Shown here: positions 2,556 through 13,172 of the stretch, piece by piece
Layout: every line of letters starts with the position of its first letter
How positions within the stretch are numbered: the first letter of the stretch is position 1
Origin: an uncultured Bacteroidota bacterium
Lineage (GTDB): Bacteria; Bacteroidota; Bacteroidia; Flavobacteriales; Flavobacteriaceae
Assembly: GCA_902519955.1 (NCBI GenBank)
Contig: CABYMF010000011.1
Location: forward strand, 1 to 40,300
Length of the DNA: 40,300 nt
Direction: 5' to 3'
Notes under the pieces: model-generated
Seen by the model: the letters and a program-made list of their open reading frames with translations, nothing else
What the model was told of the DNA's origin: nothing
Database searches by the model: none
Made by a program: the position numbers and the translations under genes

Positions 2556-5087
2556 ATGGAAAAATTTTTTTATTCAATATTAACTCTATTATTAGTTCTT
2601 AATTTTTCTCATGCTCAGGAAGATAAAGGAGTTAAGAAAGTTGATTCGAAAAAAGAAAAATCTTTTAAAGAATTTACAAAACAAAGTAGATTAATTGAAG
2701 GTTTATTTGATATATATCAGGATACTATATCAGGTAAAATTCAAATGTTGATAAGGGAAGATCAACTAAATAAGGACTATATCTATGGATCGCAAATTGC
2801 AGATGGTGTAGTCAGAACTGCTGGATTTAGAGGACAGTATAAGGATGAAAAAATATTAAACTTTAAAAAATTTTTTAATAAAATAGAAATATTAGCTGTC
2901 AATTCAAATTTCTATTTTGATGAAAATAATCCATTAAGTAAATCAAAAGATGCAAATATTAGTAACTCATTGATATCAAGCTTAAAAATTAAATATTTTG
3001 ATAAAAATAAAAATGCATATTTAATAGATGCCGATGAATTATTTATATCTGAGCTTTTGACTAGAATTAAAATCCCAACTGATCCTTTTCAATATAATCG
3101 ATCATTTCAATTAGGTAGGTTTGACAGAGGAAAATCAAAAATTGAAAAGATTAAGAACTATCCTAAAAACTTAAATGTAAAAACAAATTATGTGTATAAT
3201 AATCCAAATGTAGGTTCTTCTGGATCAGATGCTGTTGAGGATTCAAGATATGTTTCTATAAAAACATTTCATACAATTGTAGAAATGCCTGATGATGATT
3301 ATCAGATAAGACTAGATGATCAGAGAGTTGGTTATTTTTTAACCCAGGTTGACAACCTTACAGACTCTGGAACTACAAATTATAGAGATTTGATCAATCG
3401 ATGGAATCTAATTAAAAAAGATCCAAGTCTAGAAATTTCAGAACCAGTTAAACCAATTATCTGGTGGATCGAAAACTCAACTCCTATTGAATGGAGAGAA
3501 ACAATAAAGGAGGCGGTATTGCAGTGGAATACTGCATTTGAGAAAGCTGGGTTTAAAAATGCTATTGAAGTAAAGATTCAACCTGATAATGCAGATTGGG
3601 ATGCAGGAGACATTCGATACAATGTATTAAGATGGACCTCTTCACCTGAACCACCTTTTGGAGGGTATGGACCAAGTATGGTCAATCCAAAAACTGGTGA
3701 AATAATTGCCGCTGATATTATGCTTGAGTTTGTTTTTTTTACAAACAGAGTGTTTTATGACAAATTATACTCTAATGTAGCTGCATTAATGGATACAAAT
3801 ATTTATAATCATACTAATGATCATGATAATTTTGTATGCTCTGCAGGGAGCATTTTACATGATAATATAAATTTTGGAAGAACTTTTATTGCTTTAAACG
3901 GAGATGATTATGATTTAGAGGAGTTAGAAAGACAATCAATGATGTATTTAATTATGCATGAAGTAGGACATACTCTAGGTCTTAACCATAATATGAAGTC
4001 AAGTAGTATACATACTATTAGTGAACTTTATGATGTTAATAAACTAAAAGGAAAAGCTATTTCAGGTTCTGTGATGGATTACCCTGCGCTTAATTTAAAC
4101 CCTAATCCAAAAATTAAATCTCCATATGCAGATTCATCAGTTGGACATTATGATAAATGGGCTATTGAGTTTGGATATAAACCTTTCAATTCTGAGAATG
4201 AAAGAAATGAAATTTTATCAAGGTCAACAGAACCTTTACTTATTTTTGGAAATGATGCTGATATACTTTATTCTTCTAGGGGAATTGACCCAAGAGTTCA
4301 AACAAATGATATGTCTTCTGATCCAATAAGTTACTCAATTGATAGAATGAACCTTGTTAATGAACTTTTTGATGACATTTTAGATAAATTTCAAATCCCT
4401 GGTAATACTTATGAAGATCTGAGAAGAGCATTCTTTAATCTTAACTCACAATATACTGGTGCAGCCTTAACGATATCTAAATTTATAGGTGGAGTATATG
4501 TTGAAAGATCTGTAATTGGTCAAAAGAGTTCAAAGAAGCCATATTCACCAGTAAGTTATAGAGACCAAAAGCGAGCTTTTAAGGCTTTAGATGAATACAT
4601 ATTCTCTTCTGATAATTACAAAATTCCCTCTGATATTTTTAATTATTTAGCTAGACAAAGAAGAGGTTTTGAATTTTATAGTGGTCCTGAGGATCCCAAA
4701 ATTCATGATTTAATTTTATCTAATCAGGCCAGAATACTATCTCAATTAATGGCTCCTAGCACATTACAGCGTTTAAAGGATTCTGAACTTTATGGTAATA
4801 AATACAAATTATCAGAGTTTATGACAGATATAAATAATTCAATTTTTTCTGATATTGACGGGAATATTGATAGTTTCAGACAAAATTTGCAAATAGTATA
4901 CACAAAAAGACTTATTGATATTGTAAGTAGTGATAAGGGCAAAAGCTATAAAAACCATGCTAAATCTCTCGCATTGTTAAATCTTAACGAAATTATTAAT
5001 TCTATTAGCTTTAAGGGAAATATATCATCCCGGGCTCACAAAATGCATTTAAAGTCAATAATTGAAAAAGCACTAGATAATGAGTAA
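2556..5087 (+). CDS. Secreted zinc-dependent metalloprotease of the met-zincin type (DUF5117/DUF4953-like)
   Basis: An 843-residue protein with a signal peptide ending near FSHAQ (residue 21). The extended zinc motif HExxHxxGxxH is present: H468-E469, H472 and H478 in HEVGHTLGLNH. The Met-turn is SVMDY with M507. This layout, with a long N-terminal part and a matrixin-like catalytic core, is that of the large Bacteroidota zinc-dependent metalloproteases carrying DUF5117 and DUF4953. It probably degrades proteins outside the cell or in the periplasm; the substrate is unknown. It is the first gene of a packed six-gene run. Its last 8 nt overlap the start of the M14 carboxypeptidase gene, which suggests translational coupling. 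Confidence 0.9.
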   Translation: MEKFFYSILTLLLVLNFSHAQEDKGVKKVDSKKEKSFKEFTKQSRLIEGLFDIYQDTISGKIQMLIREDQLNKDYIYGSQIADGVVRTAGFRGQYKDEKILNFKKFFNKIEILAVNSNFYFDENNPLSKSKDANISNSLISSLKIKYFDKNKNAYLIDADELFISELLTRIKIPTDPFQYNRSFQLGRFDRGKSKIEKIKNYPKNLNVKTNYVYNNPNVGSSGSDAVEDSRYVSIKTFHTIVEMPDDDYQIRLDDQRVGYFLTQVDNLTDSGTTNYRDLINRWNLIKKDPSLEISEPVKPIIWWIENSTPIEWRETIKEAVLQWNTAFEKAGFKNAIEVKIQPDNADWDAGDIRYNVLRWTSSPEPPFGGYGPSMVNPKTGEIIAADIMLEFVFFTNRVFYDKLYSNVAALMDTNIYNHTNDHDNFVCSAGSILHDNINFGRTFIALNGDDYDLEELERQSMMYLIMHEVGHTLGLNHNMKSSSIHTISELYDVNKLKGKAISGSVMDYPALNLNPNPKIKSPYADSSVGHYDKWAIEFGYKPFNSENERNEILSRSTEPLLIFGNDADILYSSRGIDPRVQTNDMSSDPISYSIDRMNLVNELFDDILDKFQIPGNTYEDLRRAFFNLNSQYTGAALTISKFIGGVYVERSVIGQKSSKKPYSPVSYRDQKRAFKALDEYIFSSDNYKIPSDIFNYLARQRRGFEFYSGPEDPKIHDLILSNQARILSQLMAPSTLQRLKDSELYGNKYKLSEFMTDINNSIFSDIDGNIDSFRQNLQIVYTKRLIDIVSSDKGKSYKNHAKSLALLNLNEIINSISFKGNISSRAHKMHLKSIIEKALDNE

Positions 5088-7611
5088 ATCAAAAAATATG
5101 AAAAAAATAATAATATTAAATCTTCTATTTATAAGTTCACTATTTTCTCAAGACTATTATTTTGAGGAATATGCACCATTTGATCAAAAAATCAAGTCAC
5201 CAGAGGAATTTCTAGGATATCCAATAGGAGAAATGCATACTAGACATGACATGATTGTATCATACATGACATATCTATCCAACGTGTCAGACAAAGCCGA
5301 AATTTTATCTTATGCAACATCCTATGAGGGAAGAAAGTTAATATACTTAATTGTAAGTTCACCAGATAAAATTAAAAATCTAGAAAATATTAGGAATGAA
5401 CATATTTCTTATATAGATCCTGATAATGAAAATTATAATAGTTCTGAAAAACCCAAAAATTTTCCTGTTATCATTAATCTCGGATATAACGTTCATGGAA
5501 ACGAACCATCATCATCAGAAGCTGCAATGCTGACGGCTTATACATTAGTAAGTTCAAAAAAAGATGAAATTAAAAATTATTTGGAAAACTCTGTGGTACT
5601 AATTGACCCTGCTTTAAACCCAGATGGAAGAGATAGACATACTCAGTGGGTGAATAGTTATAAAGCCTCACCTTTAGTTGATGATCCACAGGATGCTGAA
5701 CACAATGAATATTGGCCAGGTGGGAGAGTAAATCACTATTGGTTTGACTTAAATAGGGATGTATTATTAGGTATTCATCCAGAAACAAGAGGAAAACTAA
5801 ATTTCCACCATAACTGGTATCCAAATGTTACAATGGATTTTCATGAAATGGGGACTAATAGTACATATTTTTTTGTTCCGTGGAAGGCCCATGCTGCTAA
5901 GGATCCAGTTATACCTCAAGAAAATTATGAATATTTTGAGACACTTTTTGGTGATTACTTTTCAAAAGGTCTTGATGAAATAGGTTCGCTGTATTTCACA
6001 AAAGAGGCATATGATAAAACATATCCAGGTTACAGTTCATCTTATGCTGATCTTTTAGGTGGTATTGGAATGTTATTTGAGCAAGCCAGTTCAAGGGGAC
6101 ACGTTCAAGAAACTCAATTTGGTAAGTTAACTTTTCCATTTACAATACTAAATCAATATATATCCGGAATGAATACAGTTAAAGCAGCAGTTGAAATTAA
6201 AGATGAATTAAAAGCATATCAACAGAGATTTTTTTCAACAGCACTTTCAGATGCAGATAAAAAAAGAATAAAGGGGTACTCTTTTAAAATGGGTAAAGAC
6301 AGAAATAAGACTAAAGCATTTTTAGATAAATTAAAAATTCATGATGTCAATGTATATAGAGAAAATGATAATTTTTATGTTCCAACTAAACAAAAAAAAT
6401 ATAGAACAGTTAGATCAATTTTTGAAACTAATAAAGAATTTAATGATAGTGTATTTTATGATGCTTCATCATGGTCAATTGCAAATTTTTATGATATTAA
6501 TTATACCCCTTCAACTAGGCAGATGGAAGGGACAAAAATTGAAAATTTAGACAACCTATTTGAAACTAACACATTTGAGAAATCTAATTATGCATATTTA
6601 ATTAATTCTGTTGATTATAATATTCCTGCTGTAATTAATTCATTACTTGATAGTAAAATTAAGGTTTCTACAGCCTTTAAACCTTTCAAAATTAACACCT
6701 TTAGTGGTTTACAATCATTTGATTATGGTTCGCTTGTTATTGCAGTAAGTATCCAGGATATAGATAATGAAATGTTATTTAAAAAACTTAGCTCTATTCA
6801 AGAGAATTATAACGTGAACATTTACTCAGTTAATTCTGGTTTAAGCACAGGTGGTATTGATCTTGGAAGCAGGTATGTATCACCAATCAAAAAGCAAAAA
6901 GCAATGATGTTGGTTGGAACTGGTGTAAGTGCATATGAGGCAGGAGAGGTCTGGCATCTTTTAGATCAAAGAGTTGGTATGCCTATTTCTAAAATACCTA
7001 TTAGAAACTTTGATAGAATTTCATTAGATAAATACTCAACAATGGTAATCGTTTCAGGTAACTATAAATTTAATGATAATCAGATTCAAAAAATTAAAGA
7101 TTGGGCTAGTAGAGGTAATACAATAATATCTATTGGTTCTGGTTCCAAATTTCTGATTGATAATAAAATTGTAAAAGAAGAGTTACTCAATTCAGATAAT
7201 AACACTAATAAGGGTTTATACCTTCCATATGTTGATGCAATGAATAATATTGGCAAAGAACAGATTGGTGGAATTATTTTAAGAACAAATGTAGATTTAA
7301 CACATCCATTAGGATTTGGATTAGAGGATACAAATTTACCAGTATATAAAAATAATACTATATGGATTAAACCCTCAAAAAATAATTATTCATCGGTAGT
7401 AAGATATACTGAGGACCCTTTAATTGATGGGTTTATTACTAATAAAAATCATATAAAACTTAAATCTACAGTTTCATTATTAGTATCCAAAATAGGTCAA
7501 GGCAGAGCAATAATGTTTTCTGATAATCCAAATTTTAGAGGTTCGTGGTATGGAACCAATAGACTATTTCTAAATGCATTACTTCTTGGAGATAAGATAA
7601 GGATCCCTTAA
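5080..7611 (+). CDS. Secreted M14 family zinc carboxypeptidase with a large C-terminal extension
   Basis: The ORF has 843 codons from ATG 5080, which overlaps the upstream stop by 8 nt. A second ATG at 5098 would give a cleaner signal peptide (MKKIIILNLLFISSLFSQ), so the true start may be there. M14 landmarks are present: zinc ligands H139 and E142 in HGNE, zinc ligand H255 in TMDFHEMG, the FDLNRD segment at 222-227, and the catalytic Glu E334 in LLFEQAS. The catalytic domain occupies roughly residues 30-370. Residues 480-843 are not recognisable to me; the VIVSGNYKF...IISIGSG stretch has the look of a Rossmann or amidotransferase-like fold. It probably trims peptides released by the neighbouring endopeptidase. 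Its stop shares one base with the start of the transporter gene. Confidence 0.9.
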   Translation: MSKSKNMKKIIILNLLFISSLFSQDYYFEEYAPFDQKIKSPEEFLGYPIGEMHTRHDMIVSYMTYLSNVSDKAEILSYATSYEGRKLIYLIVSSPDKIKNLENIRNEHISYIDPDNENYNSSEKPKNFPVIINLGYNVHGNEPSSSEAAMLTAYTLVSSKKDEIKNYLENSVVLIDPALNPDGRDRHTQWVNSYKASPLVDDPQDAEHNEYWPGGRVNHYWFDLNRDVLLGIHPETRGKLNFHHNWYPNVTMDFHEMGTNSTYFFVPWKAHAAKDPVIPQENYEYFETLFGDYFSKGLDEIGSLYFTKEAYDKTYPGYSSSYADLLGGIGMLFEQASSRGHVQETQFGKLTFPFTILNQYISGMNTVKAAVEIKDELKAYQQRFFSTALSDADKKRIKGYSFKMGKDRNKTKAFLDKLKIHDVNVYRENDNFYVPTKQKKYRTVRSIFETNKEFNDSVFYDASSWSIANFYDINYTPSTRQMEGTKIENLDNLFETNTFEKSNYAYLINSVDYNIPAVINSLLDSKIKVSTAFKPFKINTFSGLQSFDYGSLVIAVSIQDIDNEMLFKKLSSIQENYNVNIYSVNSGLSTGGIDLGSRYVSPIKKQKAMMLVGTGVSAYEAGEVWHLLDQRVGMPISKIPIRNFDRISLDKYSTMVIVSGNYKFNDNQIQKIKDWASRGNTIISIGSGSKFLIDNKIVKEELLNSDNNTNKGLYLPYVDAMNNIGKEQIGGIILRTNVDLTHPLGFGLEDTNLPVYKNNTIWIKPSKNNYSSVVRYTEDPLIDGFITNKNHIKLKSTVSLLVSKIGQGRAIMFSDNPNFRGSWYGTNRLFLNALLLGDKIRIP

Positions 7612-8801
7612 TGAAGTGGATTAGTGATATAGGACCGGGTATTTTAATTGCTGCAGCTTTTATTGGACCTGGTACTGTAACCCTTTGTACAATAGCTGGA
7701 GCCTCATTTGGATATTCTTTGATATGGGCAATTATTTTATCAATATTTTCTACAATTGTTTTACAAGAGATGTCTCTTAGAATAGGATTAATTACCAAGA
7801 TGAATTTAGCAGAGGTTGTGAGAATTAATATTAAATCAAAACTTATTAACAGACTTTTTTTAGTATTAATTATTAGTTCAATATTAATTGGAAATGCAGC
7901 ATATGAAGCTGGAAATATTACAGGAGCCTCACTTGGTATATCTGCAATTCTTAATTTACAATCAATTAATTATATACCAATTTTTATTGGATCAATTGCA
8001 TTTATAATACTTTATCAAGGTGATTACAAAATATTAGAAAGGATTCTTATACTATTAGTTCTAATTATGAGTTCTTCTTTTTTTATTGCGGCAATTATGA
8101 CTAAACCAAACATTAGTAGCCTAATCGATGGAATTATATCACCAGAACTTAATTCAAGTAATCTAATGATTGTCCTTGGTCTAATAGGCACTACTGTTGT
8201 TCCATATAATTTATTTCTTCACTCTTCATTGGTTTCAGAAAAGTGGAGTTCTCTGGACAAATTAAAAGTCGCAAGACTTGAAAGTTTTTTTTCAATTCTT
8301 ATTGGAGGCTTAGTTTCATTATCAATCATAATTACTGCAGCATCCTTAAATAATAAAGATGTTACTGGAGTAATTGACTTAGCTCGAGGACTTGAGCCTC
8401 TGTATGGAAAATTTGCAATCTATTTTTTAGGAATTGGTTTATTTGCATCAGGTATTACATCATCTATAACTGCACCTTTAGCTGCTGCATATGTTGCTAA
8501 AAGTTGCTTTGGTTGGGATGACTCACTGAAAAGTCTAAAATTTAGAGCTATTTGGATCATTATCCTGTTTATTGGTGTAATTGTATCAATGGTAAAAATA
8601 AATCCAATTGAAATAATAAAATTTGCTCAGTTCTCTAACAGTTTGTTACTTCCGATTATAGCAGTTATTCTTTTATGGTTAGTTAATAATAAAAGAATAA
8701 TAAGTAATAAATACAGTTATAAATATCAAAATATTTTAGGTTCTATGATAGTTATTTTATCACTAATTCTTGGAGCTAAAGGTCTAATCTCTATTTTATG
8801 A
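7611..8801 (+). CDS. Nramp-family (APC superfamily) transporter lacking the canonical metal-site residues
   Basis: A 396-residue integral membrane protein with about 11 hydrophobic segments. The Nramp framework is clear in TM1 (GPGILIAAAFIGPGT, residues 8-22) and TM6 (GTTVVPYNLFLHSSL, 193-207). In metal-transporting Nramps, TM1 carries DPGN and TM6 carries MPHN. Here these read GPGT (19-22) and VPYN (197-200), so the metal-coordinating Asp, Asn and Met are all replaced. The gene lies between a carboxypeptidase gene and pxpA, and overlaps pxpA by 4 nt (ATGA). The Bacillus subtilis ycsF-ycsG-ycsI-kipI-kipA locus likewise pairs an Nramp-like gene (ycsG) with 5-oxoprolinase genes. I infer a role in importing 5-oxoproline or a related compound; a divalent cation remains possible. 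Confidence 0.85.
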   Translation: MKWISDIGPGILIAAAFIGPGTVTLCTIAGASFGYSLIWAIILSIFSTIVLQEMSLRIGLITKMNLAEVVRINIKSKLINRLFLVLIISSILIGNAAYEAGNITGASLGISAILNLQSINYIPIFIGSIAFIILYQGDYKILERILILLVLIMSSSFFIAAIMTKPNISSLIDGIISPELNSSNLMIVLGLIGTTVVPYNLFLHSSLVSEKWSSLDKLKVARLESFFSILIGGLVSLSIIITAASLNNKDVTGVIDLARGLEPLYGKFAIYFLGIGLFASGITSSITAPLAAAYVAKSCFGWDDSLKSLKFRAIWIIILFIGVIVSMVKINPIEIIKFAQFSNSLLLPIIAVILLWLVNNKRIISNKYSYKYQNILGSMIVILSLILGAKGLISIL

Positions 8802-9520
8802 TGATAAATATAAATTGTGATTTAGGAGAGGGGCTTAATAATGAGCATATTATTTTGCCATTAATTGATTCATGTAATGTTGCATGTGGTGGTCATGCAG
8901 GTGATAATGCTAGTATGATTGAATGTGTTGAAATTTCAATTAGAAATAAAGTAAAAATCGGAGCTCATCCATCTTATCCAGATAAAATTAATTTTGGAAG
9001 AAAAAAAATAAATATCCCTCCATCTGAATTATCAATTAGTATAATTTCTCAGATTGAATCTCTTGAGGCAATTTCAAATTCATATGGTGTTACCCTTAAT
9101 CATATTAAGGCTCATGGGGCACTTTACAATCAAATGATAATAGATGCTGATCTTTCTAACTTTTATCTGGATACTATAGAAGAATTTAAAAATAAATACT
9201 CTATATATGTTCCTTATAAATCTGAAATTGAAAAATTAGCTTTAAAAAGAGGATTCAGTATTGTATATGAAGTATTTGGAGATAGAAATTATAATGATGA
9301 TTTAAGTTTAGTGTCTAGAGATAGTGAAAACGCATTAATTACTGATCCAGAGACTGTTATTGAACATATAAATACTATTAAAGAAACAAATACCGTAAAA
9401 ACCATAAATGGAAATTTTCAAAAAATAAAGTTTGATACAATTTGTATTCATTCTGATACTAATAACTCTATTGATATATTAAAAAAAATAAATAAAGAAT
9501 TTAATGGAAGACAATCATAA
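8798..9520 (+). CDS. pxpA: 5-oxoprolinase subunit A (LamB/YcsF family)
   Basis: A 240-residue protein, close to the usual 245-255. Family motifs are present in order: NCDLGEG near the N-terminus, SCNVACGGHAGD, IGAHPSYPD and HIKAHGALYNQM. PxpA works with PxpB and PxpC in the ATP-dependent opening of 5-oxo-L-proline (pyroglutamate) to L-glutamate in the cytoplasm. The start ATG overlaps the transporter stop by 4 nt, and the 3' end overlaps pxpB by 17 nt. All three subunits are adjacent and in order, which makes the pathway assignment secure. Confidence 0.94.
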   Translation: MMININCDLGEGLNNEHIILPLIDSCNVACGGHAGDNASMIECVEISIRNKVKIGAHPSYPDKINFGRKKINIPPSELSISIISQIESLEAISNSYGVTLNHIKAHGALYNQMIIDADLSNFYLDTIEEFKNKYSIYVPYKSEIEKLALKRGFSIVYEVFGDRNYNDDLSLVSRDSENALITDPETVIEHINTIKETNTVKTINGNFQKIKFDTICIHSDTNNSIDILKKINKEFNGRQS

Positions 9521-10214
9521 AACTTATTTTGTTTTTAGTGAGAGCTCTATTTTAATAACATATAATTGTGAAATCAATTTTAAATTAATTAGTGATATAT
9601 TGAATACCAGGGAAAGAATTCAGATAAATCTTAATGATTGTATTGATGAAATTGTTCAATCTATTAGTTCATTACTGGTAATTTTTGATATAAGTAAAAT
9701 CTCAGCTGAAAATCTTATTACCGAATTAAAAAAAATTGAAGATAAAGAGATTGATCTTTTTGAATCAAATAAAACATGGCAAATCCCAGTTTGTTATGAT
9801 CTAAAATACGCAGTTGATCTTGAAAATTTGGCAAAAGAAAAAAAACTCTCTCCAGCAGAAATTATTAATAATCACAAATCAAAAGTATATAATGTTTTGT
9901 CAATGGGATTTTTACCTGGTTTTATGTATATGGGTTTTACCAATAAGAATCTTCATTGTGAGAGAAAGGAAATTCCATCTTTAGACATAAAAAAAGGGTC
10001 TATTGGAGTTGCATTAAACCTAACATGCATTTATCCACAAGATAGTCCAGGAGGATGGCACATCATAGGTGTTTCTCCATTAGATTTTTTTAATTTAAAA
10101 TCTAAAAATCCCTGTTTTGCTAAGCCTGGTGATAAAATTCAATTTATTGAAATATCTAGCAGACAATATCAAAAAATGAAAAAAGAAAAATCAATAAAAC
10201 CAATATCTAAATAA
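9504..10214 (+). CDS. pxpB: 5-oxoprolinase subunit B (KipI family)
   Basis: A 236-residue protein starting at ATG 9504, inside the end of pxpA. The C-terminal half carries the KipI/allophanate-hydrolase subunit 1 hallmarks: LPGFMYMGF, a PSLDIKKGSIGVA segment, and SPGGWHIIG. In Bacillus the orthologue was first described as an inhibitor of the sporulation kinase KinA; in most bacteria this family is now taken to be a 5-oxoprolinase subunit that forms a complex with PxpC. No sporulation context exists here, so the enzymatic role is preferred. The stop is followed without spacing by the pxpC start codon. Confidence 0.93.
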   Translation: MEDNHKTYFVFSESSILITYNCEINFKLISDILNTRERIQINLNDCIDEIVQSISSLLVIFDISKISAENLITELKKIEDKEIDLFESNKTWQIPVCYDLKYAVDLENLAKEKKLSPAEIINNHKSKVYNVLSMGFLPGFMYMGFTNKNLHCERKEIPSLDIKKGSIGVALNLTCIYPQDSPGGWHIIGVSPLDFFNLKSKNPCFAKPGDKIQFIEISSRQYQKMKKEKSIKPISK

Positions 10215-11051
10215 ATGATTAAAGTTATTCAACCAGGTCTTTTTACAACAATACAGGATGGGGGAAGACATGGATATAGAGATATTGGGATACCTACCTC
10301 TGGTTTCATGGATCAAGAGAGTGCATGGGCTGCTAATAAAATTGTAGATAATAATAAGGATGAATCTCTTTTTGAGATAACACTTATTGGACCAACCCTA
10401 ATATTTAATGGCAGTTATGTAATATCAATTACAGGTGGTGATTTTAATCCCTTGATTAATGAATTACCTGTTAAGATGTATCAACCAATTAATGTCGAGC
10501 CAGGAGATACATTAAAACTAAATCATACGATAAATGGTGCTAGATGCTATTTAGCTATTTCAGGAGGACTTGATGTAAAATCTTTATTTGGAAGTAAATC
10601 ATTCTTTAGCAATATAACTGACTCGTATTATTTAAAAATGGGGGATGAAATTAAAGTTTTAAAAAGTTCTAAAAATAAAATTTTAAAATGGGAGAAATTA
10701 AAATTTAAATTAAAAATATCAATGGAAGTCTTTAAAGGTCCTGAATTTGATTTATTGTCTACTAATTCAAAAAAGAAATTGTTTAAAAACAAATTTACTA
10801 TTGGCACTAACAATAGGATGGCTTATAATCTTAAGGAAAATCTTCAAGTAGGTATAAAATCAATTATTTCGTCCCCAGTATTACCTGGCTCAGTTCAATT
10901 GACTCCATCAGGTAAAATTATCATACTTCATAGAGATTGCCAAACTACAGGGGGGTATCCAAGGATTCTTCAGCTCAATATAAATTCATTAAACCATTTA
11001 TCGCAAATAAAATCTAATGACAAAATTGAACTTACTCTGATTAATTCGTAA
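10215..11051 (+). CDS. pxpC: 5-oxoprolinase subunit C (KipA / biotin-dependent carboxyltransferase-like)
   Basis: A 278-residue protein, slightly short for a family usually around 290-330. The N-terminus has the typical TIQDGGRHGYRDIGIPTSG motif (residues 12-30), followed by SITGGDF, and the C-terminal part has the QTTGGYPRILQ motif. It completes the PxpABC 5-oxoprolinase. It is the last gene of the run starting at 2556. Its final 11 nt are shared with the convergent gene for a secreted protein on the other strand, so there is no room for an intergenic terminator. Confidence 0.93.
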   Translation: MIKVIQPGLFTTIQDGGRHGYRDIGIPTSGFMDQESAWAANKIVDNNKDESLFEITLIGPTLIFNGSYVISITGGDFNPLINELPVKMYQPINVEPGDTLKLNHTINGARCYLAISGGLDVKSLFGSKSFFSNITDSYYLKMGDEIKVLKSSKNKILKWEKLKFKLKISMEVFKGPEFDLLSTNSKKKLFKNKFTIGTNNRMAYNLKENLQVGIKSIISSPVLPGSVQLTPSGKIIILHRDCQTTGGYPRILQLNINSLNHLSQIKSNDKIELTLINS

Positions 11052-11705: not shown

Positions 11706-13172
11706 TTATTCTGGTATTATAAAAACTAAAGGATCAAAATCCCATAAATATGGAAGAAGAAAGAAAACAAATAGTGTCAATAAGACAATTGAAATTAGGT
11801 TCATCCATATTCCAACTCTAACCATATCAGGAATTCTTAGATAACCTGATCCAAAAACTATAGCATTTGGAGGAGTGGCTACAGGCAGCATAAATGCACA
11901 TGAAGCCGCAACTGTTGCAGATACCATTAATATAAACGGATGAACGTCAATTGTCATAGACATTGGGTAAAGGATCGGAAGTAACATTGCAGTTGTTGCA
12001 AGATTTGATGTAATTTCAGTTAAAAAATTAACTGATGCAATTAGAATAAAGACTAATACTATCAAAGATACACCATCCAATAAAGTCATTTGATTACCTA
12101 TCCATAGTGCAAGGCCGCTTTCCTTGAATCCTGCTGCAAGAGCCATACCGCCACCAAATAATAACAAAATTCCCCATGGTAATTTAACAGCCTCATCCCA
12201 TTTTAGAATTTTTCGTTCTCTATTTTTTGTTGGTAATAAAAATATTATAATGGCTCCTATCATAGCAATGATCGTATCATCAATTCCAGGTATAATTGAT
12301 TGAAGTAAATAAGAACGGCTTATCCACGCAAATGCAGTAAATCCAAAAACTCCAGCTACTAACTTCTCTTCATAGCTTATTTTTCCTAAAGCTTTTAATT
12401 GTTTATAAATTTCTTCTCTTCCACCTGGAAAAGTTTTCTGTTTAAACTTAAATGCAATACTTGTTATATATTTCCAGCAAATGAATAAAAGAATAATTGA
12501 TATTGGAAAACCAAATTGGAACCATTTAGCAAAGGTTATCTCATATCCAAAAGTTTCTTCAACAACACCAGCTAAAACAAGGTTAGGAGGTGTTCCAATT
12601 AAAGTAGCAACACCACCAATTGATGCGCTGTAGGCAATAGCTAACATAAGAGCTTTTCCGAAATTTAAATTCTCATCCTCAATAGTACTTGGGTTATCTC
12701 TTAATTGGGCAACAATTGCAATTGCAATAGGTAGCATCATAACAGCAGTAGCTGTATTTGATATCCACATTGACATAAATGCAGTAGCAATCATAAAACC
12801 AAGAATAATATTCACAATATTAGTTCCAATTAAATTAATAATATTTAATGCTAATCGCTTATGCAAATTCCATTTCTCAATAGCGATTGCAATTATAAAT
12901 CCACCTATGTAAAGAAAAACATACTTATGTCCAAATGAGGCAGTTGTTTCTGTTAACCCTAATCCACCAGTTAAGGGAAACAATATAATTGGCAATAATG
13001 CAGTTACAGCTATAGGTATAGCTTCTGTAATCCACCAGATTGCAATCCAAATAGTTGATGCAAGTATAGCATTTGCTCTAGGGTTTAGACTTTCGGGATT
13101 AAAGAAAAATAATACAGCTAAAAAAGCTAAGGGCCCTGATATTAAACCTATATTTTTTGAATTAATATTCAT
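11706..13172 (-). CDS. SLC13/DASS family sodium-coupled anion symporter
   Basis: A 488-residue polytopic membrane protein. The two inverted-repeat SNT-type motifs of the divalent anion:Na+ symporter family are visible: SNTATAVMMLPI starting at S138, and SNLATTAMLLPI starting at S389. In the second motif the usual Thr is Leu. Further support comes from the IWWITEAIPIAVTALLPI segment near residues 41-62, which is strongly conserved in this family. Substrates of relatives include C4-dicarboxylates, citrate and sulfate; I cannot choose among them. The gene is upstream of the secreted protein on the same strand and downstream of the tRNA-Ser terminator, so it needs its own promoter in the 13173-13300 region, where I found no convincing box. 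Confidence 0.9.
   Translation of the reverse strand: MNINSKNIGLISGPLAFLAVLFFFNPESLNPRANAILASTIWIAIWWITEAIPIAVTALLPIILFPLTGGLGLTETTASFGHKYVFLYIGGFIIAIAIEKWNLHKRLALNIINLIGTNIVNIILGFMIATAFMSMWISNTATAVMMLPIAIAIVAQLRDNPSTIEDENLNFGKALMLAIAYSASIGGVATLIGTPPNLVLAGVVEETFGYEITFAKWFQFGFPISIILLFICWKYITSIAFKFKQKTFPGGREEIYKQLKALGKISYEEKLVAGVFGFTAFAWISRSYLLQSIIPGIDDTIIAMIGAIIIFLLPTKNRERKILKWDEAVKLPWGILLLFGGGMALAAGFKESGLALWIGNQMTLLDGVSLIVLVFILIASVNFLTEITSNLATTAMLLPILYPMSMTIDVHPFILMVSATVAASCAFMLPVATPPNAIVFGSGYLRIPDMVRVGIWMNLISIVLLTLFVFFLLPYLWDFDPLVFIIPE

Follow-up and report, generated by a model that had tools for sequence, protein, structure and literature searches.

The gene at positions 7611-8801 of the DNA stretch analysed here (the window: 40,300 nucleotides of contig CABYMF010000011.1 from an uncultured bacterium of the Flavobacteriaceae) encodes a protein that we propose to act as a secondary importer with LeuT fold, bringing in 5-oxoproline (pyroglutamate, a cyclised form of glutamate), and to belong to a non-metal Nramp-related clade designated W. 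It is quite likely that the window protein imports 5-oxoproline and that a cyclic amide is the substrate across the whole W clade. An earlier note on this DNA, made from the letters alone, had placed an Nramp-like gene at these positions, with GPGT and VPYN instead of the metal-binding motifs of transmembrane helices (TM) 1 and 6, and had inferred that naming such proteins metal transporters would be a mistake. Coordinates and motifs were found as claimed, and for the window protein the metal-transporter annotation is probably wrong.

The open reading frame lies on the forward strand, begins with ATG and encodes 396 amino acids. Pfam (PF01566, 281 bits, cut-off 29.8) and NCBIfam (NF037982, 107.7 bits, cut-off 50) both place its product in the Nramp family, and it has the LeuT fold of that family. 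The sequence of TM1 is AAFIGPGTVTLCT, that of TM6 IGTTVVPYNLFLH. Aligned to DraNramp, D56 corresponds to G19, N59 to T22, A227 to T194, M230 to V197, H232 to Y199, D131 to E99 and E134 to N102, which bears out the claimed loss of the metal-coordinating Asp, Asn and Met (D56, N59 and M230). The last Asn of VPYN is retained as in the canonical MPHN, but it is no metal ligand, and the His of that motif is replaced by Tyr. Residues were compared among 53 W sequences, 32 canonical Nramps, 6 NRMT proteins and 12 members of the YcsG clade, called T. Gly and Thr of TM1 were found in 53/53 W sequences, Asp and Asn in 32/32 canonical ones, and the Asp is kept in 6/6 NRMT. At the N102 position of TM3, Asn is present in 53/53 W and 12/12 T sequences and Glu in all canonical and NRMT proteins; both the TM1 Asp and the TM3 Glu are kept in 6/6 NRMT, and neither of them in W (0/53) or T (0/12). 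The replacements in the window protein are not noise: all 53 W sequences, archaeal ones linked to hyu genes among them, have G19, T22, N102, T194, V197 and Y199 in common. W and T share Gly at 56, Asn at 134, Tyr at 232 and Asn at 381 (DraNramp numbering; 381 is N343 in TM10), and position 98 of TM3 is aromatic in both (Tyr or Phe in all W, Phe in T).

An AlphaFold model (mean predicted local distance difference test score, pLDDT, 87) has the LeuT fold; its helix breaks lie at residues 17-19 (TM1) and 196-197 (TM6), and therefore the replaced residues flank the central site. VIA-align of the model gave Z 47-48 and 2.3-2.4 Å for canonical Nramps (Z 47.9, 2.3 Å and 20% identity for DraNramp), and Z 46.5-46.7 and 2.1 Å for EleNRMT; the amino-acid carriers ApcT and AdiC matched less closely than these. 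In canonical Nramps, acidic and sulfur ligands neutralise the divalent cation at the site. In the window protein, as judged from the alignment and the helix breaks, the GPGT turn of TM1, N102 of TM3, T194, V197 and Y199 of TM6 and N343 of TM10 replace these ligands and would form a neutral, hydrogen-bonding pocket; a small anionic lactam would fit the chemistry of such a pocket, with its Gly-rich turn, Thr, Asn and Tyr. The backbone amides of the GPG turn might hold the carboxylate of the substrate. E99 may act in ion coupling, possibly as a proton site, because Gln replaces it in 6/53 W members. The aromatic residue at position 98 may, according to the alignment, face the substrate ring and is possibly comparable to W117 of Mhp1, which stacks on hydantoin (PMC5809530).

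The position of the protein in the family was examined in a tree of 85 PF01566 proteins, obtained by a quick maximum-likelihood search with Shimodaira-Hasegawa-like approximate likelihood-ratio test (SH-aLRT) values as the only support. W forms a clade of 43 rows including the window protein (SH-aLRT 99), separate from the canonical clade (100) and the NRMT clade (99). Clade T (12 rows, with a very long stem) is separate from all three; it includes the MumT-type gene of A. baumannii (L161) and a Bacteroidota member (L049) with 59% identity to YcsG of B. subtilis (chain 9a52_A). This link to YcsG came from Foldseek; phmmer with a T-clade protein matched no Nramp chain. Between the window protein and YcsG identity is only 20-21%; the common lineage with ycsG implied in the earlier note does not hold, and the single clade of all pxp-linked members (W and T) that it proposed was rejected by the approximately unbiased (AU) test (p-AU about 1e-64). 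pxp operons hold Nramp-related genes from two different clades; with this caveat, the recurrence of an Nramp-like gene in such operons across phyla stands, phyla beyond Bacteroidota having been reached via plasmid records only. Clustering inside the Mg2+ transporters, named beforehand as the outcome that would speak against a non-metal substrate, was not seen: W is not nested within NRMT in the tree, and a union of the two was not rejected (p 0.113). The protein has neither DPGN nor MPH, lacks the D131/E134 pair (E99 or Gln, and N102) and lies outside the canonical clade; it carries GxxT-TxxV instead of the NRMT motif DxxG-TxxA/T (PMC8806188); and it falls outside the sequence clade of YcsG, PxpT and MumT, although its gene sits in a pxpABC operon as theirs do.

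Gene context ties W to enzymes that open lactams. Co-occurrence was determined for PF01566, PF03746 (pxpA) and PF02538 (hyuB, a gene of the ATP-dependent hydantoinase/oxoprolinase) in 199 Bacteroidota genomes (198 drawn ones and that of the window). pxpA or hyuB was present in all 48 W carriers, which are spread over ten family codes, versus 28 of the 151 non-carriers. The distance from W to pxpA is at most 6 kb in 26 genomes, and that to hyuB in nine; the gap between W and pxpA is -22 to +4 bp in all examined loci but two. Within the window's genus, several genomes of which are incomplete, W and pxpA are neighbours in 22 genomes and both absent from three. Canonical Nramps are not linked in this way: of 65 genomes that have one, 10 have a pxp or hyu enzyme.

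These data bear on the possibility that the window protein is an importer of a divalent metal (Mn2+, Mg2+ or another) with a re-modelled site, feeding the oxoprolinase or the peptidases encoded next to it. It would agree with membership in the Nramp family by Pfam and NF037982, and Mn2+ import, based on genetics and inductively coupled plasma mass spectrometry (ICP-MS), has been reported for two proteins encoded in pxp-type operons: YcsG, renamed MntG in a study which also noted that the earlier ycsG mutant may have been polar (PMC10448178), and MumT, assigned by ICP-MS (PMC5050338). We nevertheless regard a metal substrate as unlikely. TM1 Asp and TM3 Glu occur in every demonstrated metal-transporting clade (32/32 and 6/6) and neither of them in 53/53 W sequences; the sole exception would be the disputed YcsG/MumT clade, which is distinct from W. 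Moreover, the peptidases have signal-like N-termini, so cytoplasmic metal would be of no use to them, canonical Nramps of the same phylum are unlinked to pxp or hyu genes, and a scan of the window against Rfam returned one tRNA only, with no Mn or Mg riboswitch.

Independent of the Bacteroidota evidence is the hyu linkage in archaea. Plasmids of haloarchaea encode W homologues of about 40-44% identity, and in 22/23 records the gene stands directly 5' of hyuA on the same strand. In the regions examined hyuB comes next, in some of them together with a protein of the Asp/Glu/hydantoin-racemase superfamily. HyuAB, of the caprolactamase/5-oxoprolinase family, opens cyclic amides with ATP (PMC8453981), as PxpABC does (PMC13274462), and HyuA/HyuB and PxpABC are unrelated protein families. 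Since two non-homologous lactam-opening enzymes are associated with one type of transporter, a cyclic amide is indicated as the substrate, and 5-oxoproline in the pxp-linked branch; the substrate is most simply what the two contexts have in common. For the hyu-linked relatives it would be 5-oxoproline or a cyclic amide like it. A NikR domain that would make the regulator encoded 5' of the haloarchaeal operon respond to metal was considered and discarded, the two copies tested having a ribbon-helix-helix (RHH) domain only.

The same context raises the question whether the window protein carries a different cyclic amide or small acid, such as hydantoin, another lactam or a pyroglutamyl dipeptide. 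Relatives beside HyuA/HyuB and a racemase-superfamily protein would fit this, caprolactamase is the best NCBIfam match of the hyu-linked HyuA (below cut-off), and the LeuT-fold hydantoin transporter Mhp1 is among the Foldseek matches. We judge this improbable for the window branch, where the partner is PxpABC with 5-oxoproline as its described substrate, and gamma-glutamyltranspeptidase and DUF2891 as neighbours fit glutamate/5-oxoproline metabolism. The only close W gene that does not adjoin pxpA (G053) is flanked by genes for these two proteins. In G088, G107, G118 and G134, four genomes with pxp linkage, DUF2891 is encoded immediately 5' of W, and it adjoins a hyuAB-W cluster in G108 (DUF2891 neighbour loci include L115, L160, L180 and L120). 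In Campylobacter jejuni, a mutant without DUF969, DUF979 and DUF2891 lost growth on 5-oxoproline (PMC12795558), and DUF2891, recurring beside W in pxp as well as hyu settings, may have an overlooked role in 5-oxoproline metabolism. The competing transporter candidate DUF979 was found in 0/198 of the Bacteroidota genomes searched.

Import of 5-oxoproline would complete a short pathway encoded by the six genes from the Met-zincin peptidase to pxpC. All of them lie on the same strand with overlapping or abutting ends: the first gene of the run (2556..5087) extends with its 3' end 8 bases into the next, the transporter gene at 7611 overlaps the preceding stop, it shares 8798-8801 with pxpA, pxpA and pxpB overlap at 9504-9520, and pxpC abuts at 10215. 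The two secreted peptidases encoded 5' of the transporter would release peptides and amino acids, pyroglutamate among them, outside the cytoplasm; the W transporter would move 5-oxoproline over the inner membrane; and PxpABC would open its ring with ATP to give glutamate. pxpA, pxpB and pxpC are adjacent according to Pfam, and the NCBIfam cut-off is passed by PxpA only. The gene for the M14 carboxypeptidase stands immediately 5' of the transporter gene in 10/10 loci of close relatives (L003-L012). That the protein exports a product such as glutamate, or is a non-transporting sensor whose place in the operon reflects regulation, is very improbable: operon position alone is silent on direction and ion coupling is uncertain with Gln in place of E99 in some members, but the LeuT fold is intact with both helices unwound in the model, and cells need PxpT, a distant analogue in function, to grow on 5-oxoproline supplied from outside (PMC13274462).

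Several observations weigh against 5-oxoproline import by W. An acidic residue, E99, remains near the site in most members. In 13/48 Bacteroidota genomes W is adjacent to neither enzyme, the enzyme being encoded elsewhere in the same genome, and the Fisher p of 1e-26 for the association of W with pxpA or hyuB ignores shared ancestry and so overstates the evidence. A union of whole W with whole T was not rejected (p 0.334), nor was it supported. The Mn2+ reports for the two clade T members YcsG and MumT also count against it. In one genome (G073, L131:5990-9627) a TRAP DctM permease gene stands directly 5' of W and hyuAB; W may have another role there, or one lactam operon could share two transporter types.

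Import of 5-oxoproline by an Nramp-family protein is already published but disputed, and for clade T only. PxpT is essential for growth of Corynebacterium glutamicum on 5-oxoproline (PMC13274462), and the passage of that paper concerned with ycsG cites the same growth requirement for it. Clade T resembles W in its pxpABC operon, the GPG turn, the changes of D56 to Gly, E134 to Asn and H232 to Tyr, and the Asn at N343; it differs from W in Phe instead of Thr at N59, in GGY instead of VPY in TM6, and by having no HyuAB partner in the loci examined. Canonical Nramp/MntH proteins (DraNramp, BfraNramp) have the fold in common with the window protein, which is without their metal ligands and proton-path residues. 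EleNRMT is its top sequence match among solved structures, and NRMTs are like W in having Thr at A227 and no Met, but they keep D56 and E134 (DxxG-TxxA/T, PMC8806188) and carry hydrated Mg2+. DUF969/DUF979 (PMC12795558) and the TRAP proteins DctP6/7 (PMC13274462) have, like W, a proposed role in 5-oxoproline transport and belong to different families; DUF969/DUF979 share with W the gene neighbour DUF2891. Mhp1 (NCS1) is a LeuT-fold carrier of a cyclic amide, as proposed for W, from a different family (14% identity).

The closest description of W that we found is the 'orphan' Slc11 outgroup within PF01566 (Cellier 2023, PMC10606218; 2022, PMC9606685), for which the relevant passages give GYGNGG with four invariant Gly in helix 3 and, in PMC10606218, VY in helix 6 and Thr at the metal-ligand Ala (228T). 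Compared with the residues quoted in that text, W matches at G94, Y98, G101, N102, G105, G109, T194, V197 and Y199, and it likewise has one conserved charge in TM3 (E99). In those passages the outgroup appears without function or gene context, whereas W is here tied to lactam-opening enzymes. No functional assignment of clade W and no mention of its link to HyuAB was found in a literature search that left most subscription papers outside. With less assurance than for the window protein itself, we favour the view that the orphan Nramp/SLC11 outgroup consists of cyclic-amide (5-oxoproline) transporters, present in bacteria and haloarchaea, which two lactam-opening enzymes unrelated to each other have recruited. 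Since W is an outgroup to the metal carriers, the non-metal state could be ancestral, and a switch of substrate, as put forward in the earlier note, need not have taken place; for the substrate itself 5-oxoproline is still the best guess.

If this is true, many bacterial and archaeal proteins annotated as 'Nramp family divalent metal transporter' transport no metal, the outgroup used to infer the evolution of Nramp metal selectivity gains a function, and W gives a naturally occurring non-metal counterpart to compare with the metal site. Should W and PxpT share ancestry, metal Nramps may derive from organic-acid carriers or share an ancestor with them. The dispute over clade T, where Mn2+ import is claimed for YcsG and MumT and 5-oxoproline import for YcsG and PxpT, is sharpened: T, too, has none of the acidic ligands of the site. 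It would further suggest that small marine Flavobacteriaceae both secrete peptidases and, alongside them, scavenge pyroglutamate.

The features of the window discussed here are listed in Table 1.

Table 1. Positions in the window of the W-clade gene, its site residues and the adjoining genes.
Feature	Positions	Strand	Evidence
Met-zincin metallopeptidase (DUF5117/DUF4953), predicted secreted	2556..5087	+	Pfam PF16313 246 bits; signal-like N-terminus
M14 zinc carboxypeptidase, predicted secreted	5080..7611	+	PF00246 55 bits
W-clade Nramp-related transporter, predicted 5-oxoproline importer	7611..8801	+	PF01566 281 bits, model, tree, co-occurrence, adjacency
TM1 unwound segment G19-P20-G21-T22, replacing metal-binding D-P-G-N	7665..7676	+	alignment
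TM3 Y98-E99-A100-G101-N102, replacing canonical proton-path D131 and E134	7902..7916	+	alignment
TM6 break T194-T195-V196-V197-P198-Y199-N200, replacing A-T-V-M-P-H-N	8190..8210	+	alignment
TM10 N343	8637..8639	+	N in 53/53 W, 12/12 T, 5/6 NRMT; L in 31/32 canonical
pxpA, 5-oxoprolinase subunit A (LamB/YcsF)	8798..9520	+	PF03746 262 bits; NF003814 above cut-off
pxpB, 5-oxoprolinase subunit B	9504..10214	+	PF02682 179 bits; TIGR00370 127 bits, below cut-off 145.55
pxpC, 5-oxoprolinase subunit C	10215..11051	+	PF02626 211 bits; NF045499 164 bits, below cut-off 500

Scans of the window for promoters and terminators gave signals no higher than those of shuffled sequence. A canonical Nramp was not found in the window's genome, the assembly of which is incomplete; its only other PF01566 protein (G000 contig C2:60100-61116; L002:1384-2598, minus strand) is very divergent and without both motifs (AAIGVSHLVQ in TM1, MPAPLD in TM6), and weak matches resembling it recur across the genus. 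In another genome of this genus the W gene is split or frame-shifted, with pxpA still adjoining (G214:C2:113066-114248). A further Nramp-related group (L145, L149, L155) has GPGS in TM1 and GN in TM3, and the TM6 Tyr common to W and T is absent from it.

The mum-type cluster of A. baumannii (L161:5001-9484) encodes a clade T Nramp, PxpA, a hydro-lyase and PxpBC-like proteins, which is a pxp-type operon; the reading of this cluster as 'urea carboxylase/allophanate hydrolase' and the Mn2+ role of MumT may merit re-examination. The pxpA and hyuB types of oxoprolinase look mutually exclusive in Bacteroidota: pxpA (47 genomes) and hyuB (29) occur together in 0/199 genomes, about 6.8 being expected from the margins. 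Past pxpC, on the opposite strand, the window encodes a DASS-family sodium-coupled dicarboxylate symporter (11706-13172), and its position is kept in those loci of close relatives that are long enough to show it.

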